Source: an uncultured Pelagibacteraceae bacterium (GTDB lineage Bacteria > Pseudomonadota > Alphaproteobacteria > Pelagibacterales > Pelagibacteraceae). Taken from it: a stretch of 64,000 nucleotides of DNA. The notes under the pieces were generated by a model, which saw only the letters and a program-made list of their open reading frames with translations, had not been told where the DNA came from and ran no database searches. Positions 29,296 through 64,000 of the stretch are shown here, one piece after another; within the stretch, counting starts at the first letter, position 1; the number at the start of each line of letters is the position of its first letter. The position numbers and the translations under genes were made by a program. The stretch is taken from contig CACNAR010000005.1 of the NCBI GenBank assembly GCA_902618485.1, positions 1 to 64,000 on the forward strand. Direction: 5' to 3'.

Positions 29296-31530
29296 ATGAG
29301 AGTTGCTGTTTTAAGTTTGATTATTTTATTATTTTTCTTTAACAATAATAAAGTTTATTCAGGCACAGTTACTATGCCTTCAACTTTAACAACTGATACA
29401 ACTGATTTCGTTTTACTATCAAGCTCAGGAACAACACCTAGTATTAGTGGTTACACAGGAACCCTTCTTGTTTCAGCTGTAGCATCGGATGGAAATATAA
29501 AGGTAACGTCTGTTACTAATTTAATGCAGGCAGCGGGCTATTGTAATTATCCAAGTGATAATTCAAGTGTACCTTCTCAGTGTACAGGTAATTCTCTTAC
29601 AGAAATAGGTTTTAGAGGAACACAAGATGATATTAATAATGCACTTGCAACATTATCATTCAAAGGCGATGGTGCTGCTGGATCTCCTACTATTACTGTT
29701 GCTGTAACTCCTGCAGGTACTAATTATTTTTCAGGAAATGGTCATTACTATGAACTTGTAACTGGAACTATTAATTGGGAAGATGCAAAAACTGCTGCAG
29801 AAGCTTCAACTTACTTAGGTCTTACAGGTTATCTTGTAACAATTACAAGTGAAGCTGAGAATAATTTTATTAAAAATAAAATTGGTACCAATACTTGGAT
29901 TGGTGGATCTGATGATGCAACACATACATCTAATACCCATCCAGCTATAAGTCTTGATTTAGGACAAGGTACTGCTCTAGCAGGAGAAGGTACATGGGAA
30001 TGGGTTTCAGGACCTGAAAACGGAAAGACTTTTTTTTGTCAAGTAGCAATTGAGAGTACAACACCAGGAGTTAATAAGGCAGATCCTGCACATGAGGATT
30101 GCACAGTTGCATCAGGTTATTCTTATGCAAATTGGTTAACTGATGAACCTAACGATCACCCATCTGCAGAAGACGGGGATGAAAATTGTGCTCATATGTA
30201 CGGTTCTCCATCAGGCAGAAAAGGTAAATGGAATGACTTACATTGCACAAGAGATACAACTGGAGCGTATGTAATTGAATATGGTGGAACAGCTGGTGAA
30301 AGTGCAACCGTAAGTGGTCAAACTACATTAACAATTAGATCAACAGAAGTTAGCGGTTTCAATGCGTTCGATGACAAACAAGTAAGTGGAATGGCAAACG
30401 CACAAACAGAACATGCTAAAAGATTTATGTTCAATACTACCAATCAAGTTATGCGTAGAATGGAACAGTTTAGAAGAGTTGGAATTAATAAATCAACTCG
30501 AATTAAAGATATGAAATTGTCTCTTTCTAATCAAAATAATTACAAAGAACAAATACCCCCAGAATTATTTGATTATTACATTGATAAATATAAAAATTTA
30601 TCCTCAAAAAATATTGATGATTTAATTAGTGAACTACCATTAACAAAATATTTAAAAGAAAATTATAATATGACACCAAAAGATTGGGCATTTTGGACAG
30701 CTGGCTCAATTAATAAAGGAAGACTTAATCTTAGCTCAGGTGGCGATTTAGGAATAATAAATAGAACTGAGAGTTTTTTATTAGGTGCAGATGTTAATTA
30801 TAATAAAGGTTCTTTATTTGGACTTGTTTTTAGGCGCGAAGATGATCAATCTAATATAGGCACTAAAGATAGCACTGGATTTTTAGCAAGATCAAATAAT
30901 TTTTCCCTATATAATACCTGGCAAGGATCTGAAAAAAATTATATCGATTCTTTTTTAGGGTTTGGAAAAACTACTTATGCCACAACACGTATTACTGATA
31001 CCTCAAACCCTTCCAATGTTGTAAAAGGTAAATTTAAAGCAAATCAAATTTTTGGTTCAGTTAAATATAATTTAAAGAATGTCCGTAAAAATTATAAATT
31101 TCACAATTATTCCAAATTTGATCTCGGTTTTGTAAATTTTGATGGATATTCTGAGACGGGTAGCAGTAGTTCAAAGCTAAAATTTGACAAAAGAGAACTT
31201 GAAACATCATCAATTTCTTTAGGATCTGCCGTTGAGAAAGAAATTTACCTTACCGACTCATTATTTATTCCTTATTTTAAGATAGATTTTAATAAGGATC
31301 TTACAGATGGATCAGATATACAAGCTAACTTTGTTGGAGAAACAACCAAATATAATACTACTATTGAAAAAAAATATAACTCAATGATTATTTTGGAAAC
31401 TGGATTTGATTGGTTTTTAGATAATGGGTGGAATATTAAATCTGTATTTAGCAGAATTGATAAAGATGGTGTTGGACACGAAAACTTAATAGAGCTAAGA
31501 GCTGTTAAATCAAGACAAAACTTATATTAA
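29296..31530 (+). CDS. surface protein: C-type-lectin-like domain plus predicted outer-membrane barrel
   Basis: 744 aa. Signal peptide (1 to about 22). A beta-rich, Ser/Thr/Gly-rich segment (23-140) contains two Cys. A C-type-lectin-like domain (about 150-330) has WEDAKTAAEA, LVTITSEAENNF, WIGGSDD, WEWVSGP, the Ca2+/sugar-type EPN (284-286), WND (312-314) and several Cys. The C-terminal part (about 465-744) alternates polar and hydrophobic strands rich in Asn/Lys/aromatics and ends near a Tyr, like an autotransporter barrel. I infer a cell-surface adhesin or carbohydrate-binding protein. It is flanked by pnp (47 bp) and convergent fabI (2 bp). Composition (Thr, Gly, Ser) differs from its lysine-rich neighbours. 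Confidence 0.75.
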   Translation: MRVAVLSLIILLFFFNNNKVYSGTVTMPSTLTTDTTDFVLLSSSGTTPSISGYTGTLLVSAVASDGNIKVTSVTNLMQAAGYCNYPSDNSSVPSQCTGNSLTEIGFRGTQDDINNALATLSFKGDGAAGSPTITVAVTPAGTNYFSGNGHYYELVTGTINWEDAKTAAEASTYLGLTGYLVTITSEAENNFIKNKIGTNTWIGGSDDATHTSNTHPAISLDLGQGTALAGEGTWEWVSGPENGKTFFCQVAIESTTPGVNKADPAHEDCTVASGYSYANWLTDEPNDHPSAEDGDENCAHMYGSPSGRKGKWNDLHCTRDTTGAYVIEYGGTAGESATVSGQTTLTIRSTEVSGFNAFDDKQVSGMANAQTEHAKRFMFNTTNQVMRRMEQFRRVGINKSTRIKDMKLSLSNQNNYKEQIPPELFDYYIDKYKNLSSKNIDDLISELPLTKYLKENYNMTPKDWAFWTAGSINKGRLNLSSGGDLGIINRTESFLLGADVNYNKGSLFGLVFRREDDQSNIGTKDSTGFLARSNNFSLYNTWQGSEKNYIDSFLGFGKTTYATTRITDTSNPSNVVKGKFKANQIFGSVKYNLKNVRKNYKFHNYSKFDLGFVNFDGYSETGSSSSKLKFDKRELETSSISLGSAVEKEIYLTDSLFIPYFKIDFNKDLTDGSDIQANFVGETTKYNTTIEKKYNSMIILETGFDWFLDNGWNIKSVFSRIDKDGVGHENLIELRAVKSRQNLY

Positions 31531-34126: not shown

Positions 34127-34525
34127 GTGAAATATATCGATAAATTAAGAAATTCTGGATTACGACCGACTAAACAAAGACTTCAAATATGTGAAGTTTT
34201 ATTTGATACAGAAAAGACATTTCATTTCACGATTAATGAGTTAGATCGGAAAATTAAGAAGCTTAAAAATAACAAAATTTCATTAGCAACAATTTATAAT
34301 ACTGTTCACGCTTTTGAAAAAAAAGGATACCTTAAACAGATCCCGATTAATTCAAACCAAACTTATTTTGATACAAATGTTACCGATCATCATCATTTTT
34401 ATGATTTAAAAGATGAAAAGTTGATTGATTTAGAAAATTCTGATGTTGGCCCAATAAACATCTTAAAAAAAATAAACGGTAAAAAGATTAAATCCGTCGA
34501 AGTTCTTGTTAAGCTAGAAGACTAA
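34127..34525 (+). CDS. irr: Irr-like Fur-family iron response regulator
   Basis: 132 aa from a GTG start. Winged-helix domain with KISLATIYNTVHAFEKKGYL, then a regulatory domain with TDHHHFYDLKDEKLIDL. The three-His run is the heme/metal motif typical of Irr, and the CxxC zinc sites of Fur are absent. Divergent from fabA-fabB-fabI, a neighbourhood typical for irr. In alphaproteobacteria Irr represses or activates iron-using genes under iron limitation. Irr-box-like sequences lie upstream of it and of the next gene, katG. No N-terminal heme regulatory motif is seen. Confidence 0.85.
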   Translation: MKYIDKLRNSGLRPTKQRLQICEVLFDTEKTFHFTINELDRKIKKLKNNKISLATIYNTVHAFEKKGYLKQIPINSNQTYFDTNVTDHHHFYDLKDEKLIDLENSDVGPINILKKINGKKIKSVEVLVKLED

Positions 34526-34560
34526 TTATTTGTTTCCGCTTTAGCGTCATTTTAAACCAA

Positions 34561-34589
34561 TTGACACCTTTTTAGAATCATTATAAACT
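34561..34589 (+). promoter_or_regulatory. katG promoter overlapped by an Irr-box-like palindrome
   Basis: TTGACA (34561-34566) is a perfect -35. TATAAA (34582-34587, 15-bp spacer) or TAAACT (34584-34589, 17-bp spacer) can serve as -10. Between and overlapping them is TTTAGAATCATTATAAA (34571-34587), an Irr/ICE-like palindrome resembling the fabA-irr site. Occupancy there would block RNA polymerase. Sites seen; regulation inferred. Confidence 0.55.
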
Positions 34590-34622
34590 ACAATATATAA
34601 CGAATTAATCTAAAGGAAAGTA

Positions 34623-36860
34623 ATGAGTACTGAAAATTTTAAAGATAAATCTTTTAAAGCAAATCAAATGAGCAAATGCCCTTTTACGGGGGCAGGAACA
34701 CCTGCAAAGTTTTCTGCAGGACGGGGACAAACGGTGAGAGATTTTTGGCCTAATAGCCTAAATCTTAAAATTCTTAGTCAGCACTCAAATTTATCTAACC
34801 CTATGGATAAAAAATTTAGTTACGCTAAAGAGTTTAAAAAACTTAATTATAAAGCTCTGAAAAAAGATTTAAAAAAATTAATGACTGACTCACAAGAGTG
34901 GTGGCCAGCTGATTATGGCCATTATGGGCCACTCTTTATTAGGCTTGCTTGGCATGCTGCAGGCACCTACAGAACTGGTGATGGTAGAGGTGGAGCTGGA
35001 ACAGGTAATCAGAGATTTGCTCCTCTTAATTCTTGGCCAGATAATGTCAATTTGGATAAAGCTAGATTACTTTTATGGCCAATTAAAAAGAAATACGGGA
35101 GAAAAATTTCATGGGCTGATTTATTTATACTCGTTGGAAACGTTGCTTTGGACTCAATGGGTTTTAAAACTTTTGGATTTGGAGCGGGTAGAACAGATAT
35201 TTGGGAACCAGAGGATGATATCTATTGGGGCTCAGAAAAAGAAATGTTAGGTGTTGAAAGATATAGTGGAAAAAGAGATTTAGAACAACCATTAGGTGCT
35301 TCACATATGGGTTTAATTTATGTTAATCCACAAGGGCCTGATGCTAATCCAGATCCTAAACTTGCAGCACATGATATTAGAGAGACATTTGGAAGAATGG
35401 CAATGAATGATTATGAGACAGCTGCTTTAGTTGCTGGAGGACATACATTTGGAAAATCTCATGGTGCAGCATCTGAGTCGTTCAAAGGTCCTGATCCTGA
35501 GGCTTCAAAACTTCAAGACCAGTCTACTGGATGGAATAGTGGTTACAAATCTGGAAAAGGTGTTGATACAATAAGCAGTGGTATTGAAGGTGCCTGGACT
35601 CAAAATCCTATTAGATGGGATATGGGCTATTTAGATTGTTTATATGGACATGAATGGGAGCTTACAAAAAGCCCTGCTGGTGCTCACCAATGGACGCCTA
35701 AGAAAAATGGTCAAGAAATTAAGATGGTTCCTGATGCACATAAGAAAGGTGTGCTACACCCACCAATGATGCAAACAACTGATATCTCAATGAAAGTTGA
35801 TCCAAGTTATGGCCCTATTACAAAACATTTTCATCAAAATCCAAAAGAGTTTCATGATGCTTTTGCTAGAGCTTGGTTTAAATTAACTCACAGGGATATG
35901 GGTCCTAGAGTTTGTTATCTTGGTAGTGAAGTTCCAAAAGAACAGCTAATTTGGCAAGATCCAATAGATAAACCAAAATATAAACTTAAATCAAAAGATA
36001 TTAAAGATCTAAAAAATAAAATTTCTAAATCAAAAATATCAATTTCAGATTTAGTATCAACCGCTTGGGCATCAGCGTCAACTTTTAGAGGATCAGACAA
36101 AAGAGGTGGTGCTAATGGTGCAAGGATAATGTTAGAGCCCCAAAAAAATTGGAAAGTTAATAATCCTAAGAAGTTATCGAATGTGATTAAAGCCTTGAGT
36201 AAAATCAAAAGTAAATTTGACAGTAATAAAAAAAGTGTTTCAATGGCCGATTTAATTGTACTAGCAGGTGGTGTTGGAGTAGAAATGGCCGCAAAAAAAG
36301 CTGGTTTTAAAGTTAAAGTTCCATTTTCGGCAGGAAGAGGAGATGCGAGACAAGACCAAACCGATATTAATTCATTTGGCCTTCTAGAGCCACAAGCAGA
36401 TGGTTTTAGAAACTACTTGAATGGTGGAGCTTCAAATGTTTCTGCAGAAGAAAAATTAGTAGATAAGGCTCAGTTAATGGGTTTAACAGCGCCTGAAATG
36501 ACGGCTCTAATAGGTGGAATGAGAGTTTTAGATACTAATTATGATAATTCAGAACATGGTGTTTTTACAAAAAGACCTGGTAGTCTGACAAATGATTATT
36601 TCATAAACTTACTAGATATGAATACAACTTGGAAAGAAGAAGATGAGTCAGAGCAAACGTTTTTGGGTAAAGACAGAAAGACACAAAAAATTAAATGGAA
36701 AGCGACAAGAGTTGATTTGATTTTTGGTTCAAATTCTCAATTAAGAGCCCTAGCAGAGGTTTATGCATGTGAAGATTCAGGGGATAAATTCATTAATGAT
36801 TTTATCGCAGCGTGGGTTAAAGTAATGAATTCGGACAGATTTGACTTGAAATTAAATTAA
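34623..36860 (+). CDS. katG: catalase-peroxidase
   Basis: Heme enzyme that removes H2O2 by catalase and peroxidase activity. 745 aa, the full two-domain length. Distal heme pocket [17 protein letters not shown] (Arg nearby in FIRLAWH), the Tyr of the Met-Tyr-Trp adduct in [12 protein letters not shown], and proximal His in [13 protein letters not shown]. The second, heme-less half starts near residue 455. Follows irr by 97 bp and carries its own promoter with an Irr-like site, so iron/heme-dependent control is plausible. Confidence 0.98.
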
Positions 36861-56540: not shown

Positions 56541-56582
56541 AAAACGCTTCTCATTACGTTATGTGTGAGAGGCGTTTTTTTT
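56541..56582. terminator. strong bidirectional rho-independent terminator
   Basis: A 13-bp stem: AAAACGCTTCTCA (56541-56553) pairs with TGAGAGGCGTTTT (56666 minus 100 to 56578, i.e. 56566-56578), one G-T wobble, 12-base loop, then Ts to 56582. On the other strand it ends in TTTTTAAT after the stem, so it can also stop carD transcription coming from the minus strand. Confidence 0.9.
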
Positions 56583-57450
56583 AGTTATCATCCGGTTCGT
56601 CATTATCGTGTTCTGAAATTGGTTCCTCATCTTGTATTTCAGGTGCTGAACTTTTGATTGCAGTAGTTTCTTGTTTATTTTGGCTATCTAAGTTTCTTTT
56701 AAGCGCTTTATCTAATTTTTTCTGGGTATCTTCAAAAGATAAATTTAAAATTATTTTAAATTCAGATAAAATTCTTTCATAAGCTTTTTCAAAAAGTTGC
56801 CTTTCGCTATAGGATTGGTCGACCATTAAATCATCTCCTTTATTTAAATCTCTTACTACTTCTGCTAATTCATAAATTTTACCTGAGGAAATTTTTGCCT
56901 CATATTCTTGTGCTCTCCTACTCCACATTGATCTTTTAATTTTTGGTTTACTTTTTAAAATCGAAATAGACTTGTTAACTTGATTGATTGTAGCTAATGG
57001 ACGAAGGTGAGATTGTTTATTGACTGGAACCATACCATTAGCTTTGTCTTTCTCAAATTTTATTACATACGTTTCGACATCGATTCCTCCAATACTAATT
57101 TTTTTAAATTCAGATATCTGTCCTACTCCATGTTTAGGATAAACAACATAATCCTTTACTTTATACTCTCTTTTTTCAGTCGCTTGTTTGTTCACCTTTT
57201 TTATCTCAGGTTTAATCTCAGTCCCTTTAGAAATCCTAAGGTTTTCAGATTTTAATTCTGTCTTTTTGGGAATATTTTTATTTTGTTTTTTTTGAGTAAC
57301 TCTTTTTAATTTTGGTTTTACTGTTTTTTTAATTTTTTTAGGTGTTTTTTTTACACTTTTAGAAACTTTTATTTTTGTAACTTTTTTTGTTTTTTTTGAT
57401 TTGTTTTTAAATGTTCTCTTTAAAATATTTTTCAAACTTATCTTGCTCAT
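56581..57450 (-). CDS. carD: CarD-family transcriptional regulator with Lys-rich N-terminal tail
   Basis: 289 aa. CarD/CdnL proteins bind the RNA polymerase beta subunit and stabilise open complexes, notably at rRNA promoters. The CarD core starts near residue 94 ([17 protein letters not shown]) and runs to about 255 ([25 protein letters not shown]). Before it is a tail with 24 Lys and 2 Arg in the first 60 residues; after it is an acidic tail ([15 protein letters not shown]). The ATG overlaps the fdxA end by 44 bp; a GTG at the codon for Val-86 (VNKQATEK) is a shorter alternative. fdxA-carD adjacency is typical of alphaproteobacteria. Confidence 0.9.
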
Positions 57451-61371: not shown

Positions 61372-61448
61372 TGGTGCGCCTGCTAGGAGTCGAACCCAGA
61401 ACCTCCTGGTCCGTAGCCAAGCGCTCTATCCAGTTGAGCTACAGGCGC
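61372..61448 (-). tRNA. tRNA-Arg (anticodon ACG)
   Basis: 77 nt on the minus strand with encoded CCA. The acceptor stem pairs GCGCCTG with CAGGCGC. The anticodon arm is CTTGG-CTACGGA-CCAGG, giving ACG, which is normally deaminated to ICG to read CGU/CGC/CGA. The T arm is CTGGGTTCGACTCCTAG. Confidence 0.97.
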
Positions 61449-61520
61449 ATTTATAATTTTATTTAAATACATTATATTAATTTTTAGTATATTTTAATTA
61501 TAAGATAAATTTAAAAATTA

Positions 61521-62696
61521 ATGACAGATAAATCAAAAGAAGTAGTGATTGTTAGTGCTGTTAGGACACCTATAGGATCTTATAGAGGTTCATTAAAAAA
61601 AATGAGATCTGATCAGCTTGGATCTTTAGTGATCAAAGAAGCTTTAAAACGAACTAAATTTAGTTCAGATGAGGTAGATGAAGTAATAATGGGCCAAGTA
61701 TTGACTGCTGGCGCTGGACAGAACCCTGCTAGACAAGCTGCAATAAATGCTGGAATACCAATTTCAAAACCAGCACATATAATTAATCAAGTTTGTGGGT
61801 CTGGATTAAGAGCAGTAATATCGGGATATCAATCTATCAAATTGGGCGAGGCATTAAATGTTATTTCTGGGGGACAAGAGAATATGTCAATAGCACCACA
61901 TTCAATTTTTTTTAGAGATGAAAGAAAAATTTTAGAAGATAAACTAACAGATACAATGATTAATGATGGATTGATGGATGCTTTTAATAATTATCACATG
62001 GGCGTTACAGCAGAAAATATTGCAAAAAAATTTGACATATCTAAAAAGGAACAAGATGAGTTTGCTCTAAATTCTCAAAAAAAAACAGAAGAGGCAATCA
62101 AAAATAGCAAATTTGATGATGAGTTAGTTAAGATTAACCAAGGTAATAACCTGCTAAACTTAGATGAGCATCCACGAATAGGTCTAAAAATTTCTGATCT
62201 AGAAAAACTTAAAACAGTTTTTAAGGAAAATGGAACAGTCACACCCGGAAATTCTTCTGGGATAAATGATGGTGCTGCGGCTTTATTTTTAACCACCATT
62301 GAAGAAGCAGAAAAAAAATCTATCAATCCGCTTGTAAAAATAGTGTCATGGGCATCAGTTGGAGTAGATCCAACTTTAATGGGTCTAGGGCCAATAGAAG
62401 CTGTTCGCAAGGCAATTAATATAGCTGGATGGAATTTAGATGAGGTTGATTTATTTGAAATTAATGAAGCTTTTGCAGCTCAAAGCATAGCTGTAATTCG
62501 TGAGTTGAGTGTTGACCCAAACAAAGTTAATGTAAATGGTGGTGCAATCGCGTTAGGTCATCCTATTGGTGCATCAGGAGCAAGAATACTTGTAACTTTA
62601 GTACATGAAATGAAGAGACAAAAAAAAAGTAAGGGTTGTGCAACTCTCTGTATTGGAGGTGGAATGGGTATAGCTTTATGTGTTGAAAGAATTTAG
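61521..62696 (+). CDS. acetyl-CoA C-acetyltransferase (thiolase)
   Basis: 391 aa. Joins two acetyl-CoA to acetoacetyl-CoA or runs in reverse. Nucleophilic Cys in NQVCGSGLRAV, NEAFAAQ, catalytic His in GGAIALGHPIGASGARI and second Cys in LCIGGGMGIA. Biosynthetic (PhaA/AtoB) type by motif. Whether it serves polyhydroxybutyrate, ketone or branched-chain metabolism is not shown by neighbours. Start is the ATG at 61521. Confidence 0.95.
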   Translation: MTDKSKEVVIVSAVRTPIGSYRGSLKKMRSDQLGSLVIKEALKRTKFSSDEVDEVIMGQVLTAGAGQNPARQAAINAGIPISKPAHIINQVCGSGLRAVISGYQSIKLGEALNVISGGQENMSIAPHSIFFRDERKILEDKLTDTMINDGLMDAFNNYHMGVTAENIAKKFDISKKEQDEFALNSQKKTEEAIKNSKFDDELVKINQGNNLLNLDEHPRIGLKISDLEKLKTVFKENGTVTPGNSSGINDGAAALFLTTIEEAEKKSINPLVKIVSWASVGVDPTLMGLGPIEAVRKAINIAGWNLDEVDLFEINEAFAAQSIAVIRELSVDPNKVNVNGGAIALGHPIGASGARILVTLVHEMKRQKKSKGCATLCIGGGMGIALCVERI

Positions 62697-62809
62697 GAAT
62701 TTATCTTTCCGTATTTCCCCTCTAGTAATATTTTTTGTATCCACATTTTAGCGTCCACGTGTGTATTATCATTTGAATGAATAAGTAATTTTAGTATCTT
62801 TTTAAACAT
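62693..62809 (-). CDS. small basic ORF (38 aa), candidate
   Basis: Reads MFKKILKLLIHSNDN and ends ILLEGKYGKINS. Its stop overlaps the thiolase stop on the opposite strand. The frame stays open upstream to about 62869 (TTG), which would give 58 aa. The mix of hydrophobic helix and charged end looks protein-like, but there is no recognised family or clear ribosome-binding site. The rest of the 62697-62904 gap holds only AT-rich sequence and presumably the aceE promoter. Confidence 0.3.
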   Translation of the reverse strand: MFKKILKLLIHSNDNTHVDAKMWIQKILLEGKYGKINS

Positions 62810-62904
62810 TTTTGCATTTAAGAGTAAAAGAGTGTCAAAAAATAGGACAGAATGTGTTAAAATTTTCAATTCACTAAATTTTTATAGTGTATAAAACATA
62901 AAAA

Positions 62905-64000
62905 ATGACTGAAAAATTACTAGTTCCTGACATTGGCGATTTTGAAAATGTTGAGGTAATTGAATTACTTGTCGAAGAGGGTCAAGAAATTAAAAAAAAT
63001 GATCCAGTGGTCACTATTGAAAGTGATAAATCTAGTGTTGAAATTCCATCAACTTTTTCAGGCAAAGTTGAAAACATAGAAGTAAAAGTTGGTGATAAAG
63101 TTTCAAAAGGGGACTTGCTTCTCAGTATATCAGGCCCTGATGAAAAATTGTCTAAATCAGAAGAGGTTCCAAAAAATACTGAAAATTTAATTATAGAGGC
63201 AGAAAATTCTTTAAAAAAAAATAAAGAACAAGAAAAGCAAATTCCAAAATTTGAGAAAGAAAAACCTAGCAAAATTGAAGTTGTAAATGAAGGTGATATT
63301 GATCCTTTAGAGACGCGTGAATGGTTAGAGTCTCTCTCAGATGTTATTGAAAAAGATGGTAATCATAGAGCTCACTATTTGATTAAGGAATTGATCAATA
63401 AAGCTTATATGGAGGGAGCCAATATCCCATACACACAAAATACTCCCTATATAAATACAATTCCTGTAAGTGAAGAAAAGAAATCGAGTGGTGATCAGAA
63501 TATAGAAAGAAGAATTAGATCATTAATTAGATGGAATGCTGCTGCAATGGTAGTAAGGGCAAATAAAAAATTTCCTGAACTTGGAGGTCATATTGGAACC
63601 TTTGCATCTGCTGCAACTTTATATGATGTTGGAATGAATCATTTTTGGAGGGCAAAAAATAATAAATTCGGAGGAGATCTTGTTTATTTTCAAGGCCACA
63701 GTGCACCTGGTATGTACGCTAGAGCATTTCTTGAGGGAAGACTTAATGAAAAACAATTGGATAGTTTTAGACAGGAAGTTAAACCTGGTGGTTTATCTTC
63801 ATATCCACATCCTTGGTTAATGCCAAACTTTTGGCAATTTCCAACAGTCTCTATGGGTTTAGGACCAATGTTAGCGATTTATCAAGCAAGATATATGAAA
63901 TATTTGATTAATAGAGGACTAATTAAGGATGAAGGTAGAAAAGTTTGGGCATTTTTAGGTGATGGCGAAATGGACGAGCCAGAGTCTCTAGGAGCAATTG
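62905..64000 (+). CDS. aceE: pyruvate dehydrogenase E1 (homodimeric, AceE) with N-terminal lipoyl domain; partial
   Basis: First 365 codons of a longer gene. Residues 1-80 form a lipoyl domain (VPDIGDFENVEVIELLVEEG; lipoyl-Lys at 42 in ESDKSSVEIPS). Residues 81-130 are a charged Lys/Glu linker. From about 131 the sequence follows canonical AceE: DIDPLETREWLESL, NYINTIPV-type segment, RRIRSLIRWNA, GGHIGTFASAATLYDV, FQGHSAPGMYARAFLEGRL, GLSSYPHPWLMP, FLGDGEMDEPES (thiamine diphosphate motif start). The frame is continuous with no stop across the junction. E1 oxidatively decarboxylates pyruvate; a lipoyl domain normally sits on E2. Confidence 0.95.
   Translation, partial: MTEKLLVPDIGDFENVEVIELLVEEGQEIKKNDPVVTIESDKSSVEIPSTFSGKVENIEVKVGDKVSKGDLLLSISGPDEKLSKSEEVPKNTENLIIEAENSLKKNKEQEKQIPKFEKEKPSKIEVVNEGDIDPLETREWLESLSDVIEKDGNHRAHYLIKELINKAYMEGANIPYTQNTPYINTIPVSEEKKSSGDQNIERRIRSLIRWNAAAMVVRANKKFPELGGHIGTFASAATLYDVGMNHFWRAKNNKFGGDLVYFQGHSAPGMYARAFLEGRLNEKQLDSFRQEVKPGGLSSYPHPWLMPNFWQFPTVSMGLGPMLAIYQARYMKYLINRGLIKDEGRKVWAFLGDGEMDEPESLGAI

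Follow-up and report, generated by a model that had tools for sequence, protein, structure and literature searches.

A putative swinging arm on the E1 component of pyruvate dehydrogenase in SAR11 bacteria, and E2 components without an arm in relatives

Introduction

What could a lipoyl domain be doing at the N-terminus of the E1 component of pyruvate dehydrogenase (PDH)? In standard accounts of this complex the swinging arm sits on E2 and radiates from the core. The question is raised by an open reading frame from an uncultured Pelagibacteraceae bacterium (GenBank assembly GCA_902618485.1) belonging to SAR11, a group whose cells are among the most abundant in the ocean. The window, that is, the whole stretch of DNA that was analysed, comprises positions 1 to 64,000 of contig CACNAR010000005.1 (64,000 nucleotides), and the frame runs off its right-hand end. 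A first-pass annotation, made from the letters alone, had read the frame as a lipoyl domain fused to a homodimeric E1 (AceE), with the arm either supplementing or replacing that of E2.

Results and discussion

On the forward strand the frame (aceE) starts with the ATG at 62905 and is still open where the window ends (62905..63999). When the reading was continued past the window edge on the same contig, 1012 amino acids without a stop were obtained, the end being at contig position 65940. Pfam assigned a Biotin_lipoyl domain to residues 5-75 (66.8 bits by hmmscan, cut-off 22.1), followed by Transketolase_N, PDH_E1_M and Transketolase_C_1, and the NCBIfam equivalog model for AceE, TIGR00759, matched residues 129-1010 with 1422.8 bits (cut-off 859.9). 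The length of the frame and these matches confirmed that a lipoyl domain, a charged linker and AceE lie in one uninterrupted frame, as had been proposed. According to both Pfam and TIGR00759 the AceE part is a single chain, so there are no separate α and β E1 chains.

The lipoyl domain occupies 62917..63129 (+) and scored 72.2 bits with PF00364 in the genome search. Its predicted lipoylation site, Lys42, lies in the motif ESDKSSVEIPS and is encoded by 63028..63030 (+), in agreement with the first-pass annotation. This lysine is kept in all 176 SAR11 E1 lipoyl domains read (123 distinct domain sequences, some loci having been counted more than once), as against 118 of 122 domains on the neighbouring SAR11 E2. 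The surrounding ESDKSS is invariant in 25/25 aligned E1 sequences, and SDKSS is present in all 176 E1 domains. Chance similarity to a lipoyl domain was ruled out by the scores of 66.8-72.2 bits and the conserved lysine. In the AlphaFold model of E1 from a relative (locus L174), which is poor overall (mean pLDDT 42.7) with block means of 67-84 in the lipoyl part (residues 1-80), Lys42 falls after the strand at 34-39 and before that at 44-48, where confidence is moderate.

The linker that follows (residues 76-130; 63130..63294, +) is charged and variable, with a dN/dS of 0.327 compared with 0.084 for the lipoyl domain; its length is 47-71 residues, with a median of 55, over 157 E1 frames that are not all distinct. 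Next comes the N-terminal segment of AceE (residues 130-173; 63292..63423, +), the presumed E2-docking segment, which matches a 49-residue AceE chain of PDB entry 9h1n (9h1n_C). The thiamine-diphosphate decarboxylase begins at 63295 and takes up the remainder of the window (residues 131-365; 63295..63999, +). Over query residues 130-1009 the protein is like E. coli AceE (PDB 1l8a; 1114.6 bits), with the catalytic residues and the docking segment kept. The catalytic residues of the E. coli enzyme, His106, His142, His407, Glu571 and His640, are all retained in this alignment (positions counted by hand). A role for His407 is given in PMC6270654. E. coli AceE (886 amino acids) aligns from its residue 6, which leaves no room for a lipoyl domain, unlike in the SAR11 E1.

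Upstream on the same strand lies a thiolase gene (61521-62696), separated from aceE by a 208-base gap, and an Rfam search of 61400-64000 gave no match. The right flank and the number of lipoyl domains on E2 had been named as a check on the annotation. It was found that aceF begins one base past the stop codon of aceE and encodes 420 amino acids, in which Pfam recognised one lipoyl domain, an E3/E1-binding domain (PSBD) and an acetyltransferase domain. No lpd follows aceF, the next frames being transporter-like, undecaprenyl-diphosphatase-like and glutamate-synthase-like (by eye); the one E3 match of the window genome is on contig C1, adjoining SucA- and SucB-position frames.

The search for AceE homologues with the same N-terminal domain, also suggested with the annotation, found it in 143 distinct SAR11 AceE sequences. 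In a tree of 159 distinct AceE sequences these fall into a single clade (local support 100), and they carry one or two lipoyl domains each; the other 16, which have no lipoyl domain, comprise 12 non-SAR11 sequences and a second SAR11 AceE in four copies. All of the best 80 of 587 confirmed matches bear the name Pelagibacter or Pelagibacteraceae, which places the window genome in SAR11; among them is the cultured strain 'Candidatus Pelagibacter ubique' HTCC9565 (L165), with a lipoyl domain on both E1 and E2. An E1 lipoyl domain was present in 80/80 of these loci, and their E2 had one lipoyl domain in 53 cases and none in 20, was off the locus in 6 and was split into two frames in 1. In a first sample of 41 genomes, including that of the window, the AceE match reached the lipoyl part in 18, all of one genus, one of these matches starting at residue 28, at a contig end. 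A sample of the order gave an AceE match in 227/297 genomes and, among the matches listed, the start was at query residue 1-4 except in G177, where the contig ends inside the gene. An AceE match was also obtained from 30/30 selected genomes, which included six further genera of the family; in one of them (G283) the contig ends before the lipoyl part is reached. The E1 genes read from genera g5 and g7 carry two lipoyl domains, and in genus g6 there is one on E1 and two on E2.

Beyond SAR11, a search of the class gave matches in 12 of 385 genomes: 5 were SAR11, 6 had an AceE that is not fused, and the last had nothing but a lipoyl match. In a search of the phylum (398 genomes, 162 matching) none of the non-SAR11 matches listed starts before query residue 71, and the one starting there reads through four stops. 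Twelve non-SAR11 AceE loci, including all eight listed with a frame >1000 amino acids, have an AceE frame without a lipoyl domain. The idea that the fusion is a general feature of AceE was discarded, as it was not found outside SAR11 among the matches listed and the loci read within the phylum.

A second AceE, without a lipoyl domain, occurs in some SAR11 (L024, L026, L027 and L028; also G041, G051, G119 and G179) as frames of 884-902 amino acids with 51-54% identity to the fused AceE. In all seven genomes with a second AceE in which the E2 next to the fused copy was read as well (G011, G013, G018, G041, G051, G119 and G179), that E2 keeps its lipoyl domain. The second AceE of L028 scores above the AceE cut-off and slightly higher on the exception model 'AKGDH_not_PDH', but below the cut-off of the latter. 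Neither AceE nor this E2 was found, at the thresholds used, in some SAR11 genomes that are >90% complete (G063, G098, G127, G009, G175, G186 and others), and AceE was absent in 16/16 genomes of the other family of the order (f2). An E1-alpha-like frame of 327-352 amino acids was seen in G009 and G063, and there was none among the matches listed for G098, G127 and G186.

In many species the E2 gene that follows the fused aceE has only 299-329 codons and begins at the PSBD. Pfam recognised the PSBD and the catalytic domain only in the E2 of loci L174 and L147, and an AlphaFold model of such an armless E2 had a mean pLDDT of 56.6. In the order sample of 297 genomes, at least 41 of the 220 with an E2 match encode an E2 that lacks a lipoyl domain, a count made up of 38 listed matches with frames ≤329 amino acids together with G112, G281 and G302. 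Thirty-one of these 38 E2 loci were read with their flanks, and no lipoyl match was found in any frame over 2-3 kb at E values up to 1; all 31 short E2 frames follow an AceE frame. The remaining seven of the 38 were read separately, and the truncated E2 in G233 (L319) begins in the same way as the armless E2. Wherever both genes were read and E2 was armless, E1 carried a lipoyl domain (31/31 distinct loci). The canonical make-up of E2, with one to three lipoyl domains, a PSBD and a catalytic domain, is thus found in the window organism and not in the armless-E2 relatives. Of the two roles offered by the first-pass annotation, an extra arm describes the window genome, with its one lipoyl domain on E2, and an arm replacing that of E2 apparently describes these relatives.

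The E1:E2 lipoyl counts seen were 2:2, 2:1, 1:2, 1:1 and 1:0, where 1:2 and 2:2 include a second E2 domain without the lysine. In this second domain of genera g6 and g7 (L116, L117, L118 and L123) the lysine is replaced by Glu in 4/4 copies read, and we read it as a decaying domain.

An AceE tree built from 57 SAR11 representatives requires at least six changes in the state of E2, a count that alone cannot separate loss from gain. All six changes are forced by branches with SH-aLRT ≥95, in a quick tree search with no bootstrap, and a 159-row FastTree AceE tree gave six changes as well. Loss rather than regain is indicated because the non-SAR11 E2 genes read (e.g. L271 and L272) have lipoyl domains. 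One of the losses looks recent, since L147, in which the E2 start codon comes immediately after the E1 stop, is armless while a normal lipoyl domain is present on the E2 of L009 and L146, which are closely related to it.

Other possible arms were sought in the armless-E2 genomes. In 10/10 of these (86-98% complete) the inventory of PF00364 matches consisted of AceE, a SucB-position frame (about 440 amino acids) and a biotin-carrier-like frame (119-172 amino acids), with one further, borderline match of 22 bits in G079. The inventory is one of PF00364 matches, GcvH belonging to another Pfam family; missing parts of single incomplete genomes may hide matches, and the ten inventories agree. The E3 frame (465-479 amino acids) had no PF00364 match in 16/16 genomes. 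In each of these 16 there was a single strong E3 match, near the SucB-position frame, and E3 therefore looks shared.

PF03099 matched in 15/16 genomes, mostly in frames of 174-232 amino acids. The one of these frames that was read (L279) adjoins a pantothenate-kinase-like frame and looks, by eye, like the biotin ligase BirA rather than LipB. A motif scan for lipoylation enzymes gave none in the DNA scanned, which is a small part of any genome. In G079 an E1-alpha-like frame of 322 amino acids was noted (C2:24474-25364); the lipoyl inventory leaves no domain for a separate complex, and this protein may use the arm of AceE or SucB.

Selection on the E1 arm was estimated from pairs of loci. Pooled over 53 non-overlapping pairs, the dN/dS of the E1 lipoyl domain (0.084) lay between those of AceE (0.032) and the linker (0.327). 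In the armless-E2 pairs (n = 9) the lipoyl domain gave 0.032, compared with 0.033 for AceE in the same pairs, and in the armed-E2 pairs (n = 39) it gave 0.091, with 0.113 for E2's own lipoyl domain. When the loci were paired at random 20 times, giving 10 armless and about 43 armed pairs each time, the nonsynonymous rate of the lipoyl domain relative to AceE was 1.42 for armless and 2.99 for armed E2. Permutation of the labels, which ignores descent, gave p = 0.002 (median, equal to the floor of 500 shuffles; range 0.002-0.010), the armless-E2 group consisting of 9-10 pairs that represent few clades. In this group the linker, too, evolves more slowly than in the armed-E2 pairs (5.5 vs 8.6 relative to AceE), so the lipoyl domain alone does not account for the whole rate effect. 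Judged by these rates, the E1 arm is under purifying selection, which is stronger where E2 is armless.

It is very likely, on this comparison of genes, that E1 of SAR11 PDH bears a working swinging arm, which would be the second in the window organism, next to E2's own, and the sole one where E2 is armless. The pattern is best read as a PDH arm relocating from E2 to E1, where it would be tethered beside E1's E2-docking segment. E1 would dock on the PSBD of E2 through the N-terminal segment of AceE, as in E. coli, for which the available sections of PMC6270654 describe AceE residues 1-55 as contacting mainly the PSBD. In general the PSBD binds E1 or E3, and E2 usually has one to three lipoyl domains (PMC8421416, in part). 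In PDB entry 9h1n the AceE chain (9h1n_C) matches the window E1 at residues 130-173, and an E2 chain with the PSBD (9h1n_A) matches the armless E2 of L174 at residues 7-52. We infer from their presence in one entry that these two chains are bound to each other, and the docking pair appears to be kept, since both have matches in the SAR11 E1 and armless E2.

The lipoyl domain would then hang on a flexible linker of about 55 residues that directly precedes the docking segment. Lys42 of AceE would be lipoylated and then reductively acetylated in the E1 active site; the arm would reach the adjacent E2 catalytic trimer, where the acetyl group would pass to CoA, and would be re-oxidised by E3. In the armless-E2 relatives the E1 arm would perform the whole job. 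PDH of these relatives is likely to be inverted, with the only arm on E1 and with E2 as a bare scaffold and acetyltransferase, the two-arm state being a stage in a relocation that was completed several times.

Several alternatives to a relocated working arm were weighed. The E1 domain might be accessory only, adding capacity or helping E1 to stay in the complex while the work itself falls to E2 or to some other lipoyl protein. An E2 lipoyl domain with its lysine is kept in the window genome and in most loci read, and the E1 lipoyl domain evolves faster where E2 is armed; in the window genome the E1 arm could indeed be accessory, since E2 is armed there. As an account of the whole group this is unlikely: at least 41 of the 220 genomes have an armless E2, yet no E1 lipoyl domain read is without the lysine, and every E1 read beside an armless E2 (31/31) carries the domain.

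It is a good deal less probable that the lipoyl domain of SucB serves PDH in trans where the PDH E2 (E2p) is armless, in a hybrid complex, and that the E1 domain is otherwise employed. The apparently shared E3, with its one strong match near the SucB-position frame in 16/16 genomes, would fit such a complex, and an actinobacterial precedent exists in Corynebacterium, where AceF serves OdhA (PMC10415282, in part). Against this, the E1 lipoyl domain is most constrained just where E2p is armless, the E1 arm is tethered to the very enzyme that loads it, and all 48 SAR11 E1 and E2p lipoyl domains in the tree described below group together, apart from SucB. A folded but unlipoylated domain with a structural or regulatory role is very improbable, given the invariant ESDKSS (25/25) and SDKSS (176/176) of E1 and the loss of the lysine from the second E2 domain of g6 and g7 (4/4), which implies that such loss occurs when the site is not needed.

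There is next to no chance of an artefact, whether an AceE start near 63290 instead of the ATG at 62905 or a sequencing or assembly error that merged a separate lipoyl gene with aceE, both of which had been raised as ways in which the annotation might fail: an in-frame ATG or GTG does lie within the linker in 44 of 149 distinct E1 sequences, but these belong to clades other than that of the window, whose frame has none from residue 36 to residue 168 (the sole candidates there being TTG codons at 71, 82, 159 and 163), the identical arrangement recurs in 143 distinct sequences from many assemblies, and the lipoyl codons are under purifying selection. From the reading frames and their homologues, then, the lipoyl domain on AceE is judged a real fusion, neither a start-site nor an assembly error.

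In L012, L099, L151, L153 and others an in-frame ATG is found in the linker, about 30 codons upstream of AceE. In those clades it is a possible internal start, which would give an arm-free E1; it is absent from the window.

In a tree of 64 lipoyl domains (75 columns), all 48 SAR11 PDH domains, from E1 and E2 alike, form one clade (96/97) that excludes SucB and the domains from five loci of other bacteria. Since they group together, the probable source of the E1 domain is the E2 of the same complex, from which it would have been copied inside the SAR11 lineage. The tree does not resolve one single transfer, and its finer order is unsafe with 75 columns. In g5 an E1 domain clusters with the E2 domain of the same genomes, suggesting an exchange of lipoyl domains across the two chains. 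Copying of the PDH lipoyl domain within SAR11 would have made the E2 copy dispensable, and this copy would then have been lost repeatedly.

Zymomonas mobilis PDH too has a lipoyl domain on an E1 chain, and its E2 keeps a lipoyl domain as well. Its E1 is a heterotetramer (α2β2), whereas that of SAR11 is a single-chain AceE; the lipoyl-bearing chain is the α chain in the text of PMC7873978 and E1-β in a title cited there. The same source, in the sections available, places the arm of Mycoplasma hyopneumoniae PDH off E2 and on E3 (PdhD), lipoylated at K42, in contrast to the SAR11 arm on E1, and gives Alcaligenes eutrophus and Neisseria meningitidis a lipoyl domain on E3, whereas the SAR11 E3 frames had no lipoyl match. 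The premise of the first-pass annotation that lipoyl domains belong to E2 was thus too strong, as they are also known on E3 and on Zymomonas E1 (PMC7873978, in part). In the alphaproteobacterial AceE operon of L272, E2 has one lipoyl domain and the next frame, of 699 amino acids (E3 by size), has two. E. coli E2 has three lipoyl domains (PMC8421416, in part) and the E2 of the window genome has one. The actinobacterial OdhA/KGD, an E2o-E1o fusion, likewise has rearranged domains but depends on the lipoyl group of E2p, whereas the SAR11 E1 brings its own (PMC10415282, in part).

For SAR11 itself, PMC10030771 reports aceEF and extra aceE copies, and the word 'lipoyl' is absent from its main text in the form available. 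In the open-licence literature no report was found of a lipoyl domain on a homodimeric E1, or of one together with an armless E2, nor any on the lipoyl architecture of SAR11 PDH. With lipoyl domains off E2 already known, what appears to be new is the E1 arm on an otherwise standard AceE-type PDH, with an E2 without an arm in relatives. In SAR11 the E2 arm appears to have been removed repeatedly while the E1 arm was retained. This makes an old question about active-site coupling testable: must the arm start from the core, or need it just be tethered where it can reach all three active sites? The natural series of E1:E2 lipoyl counts likewise provides material for asking how many arms are needed.

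Three further frames of the window, with families assigned by eye, were noted in passing. At 56581-57450 (-) lies a gene for a CarD-like regulator whose N-terminus is extended by a long stretch rich in lysine. A 744-amino-acid frame at 29296-31530 (+) opens with a signal-like sequence, contains a stretch resembling a C-type lectin and ends like an autotransporter. At 34127-36860 (+) a catalase-peroxidase (KatG-like) frame immediately follows a Fur/PerR-like regulator; catalases are reportedly uncommon in SAR11.
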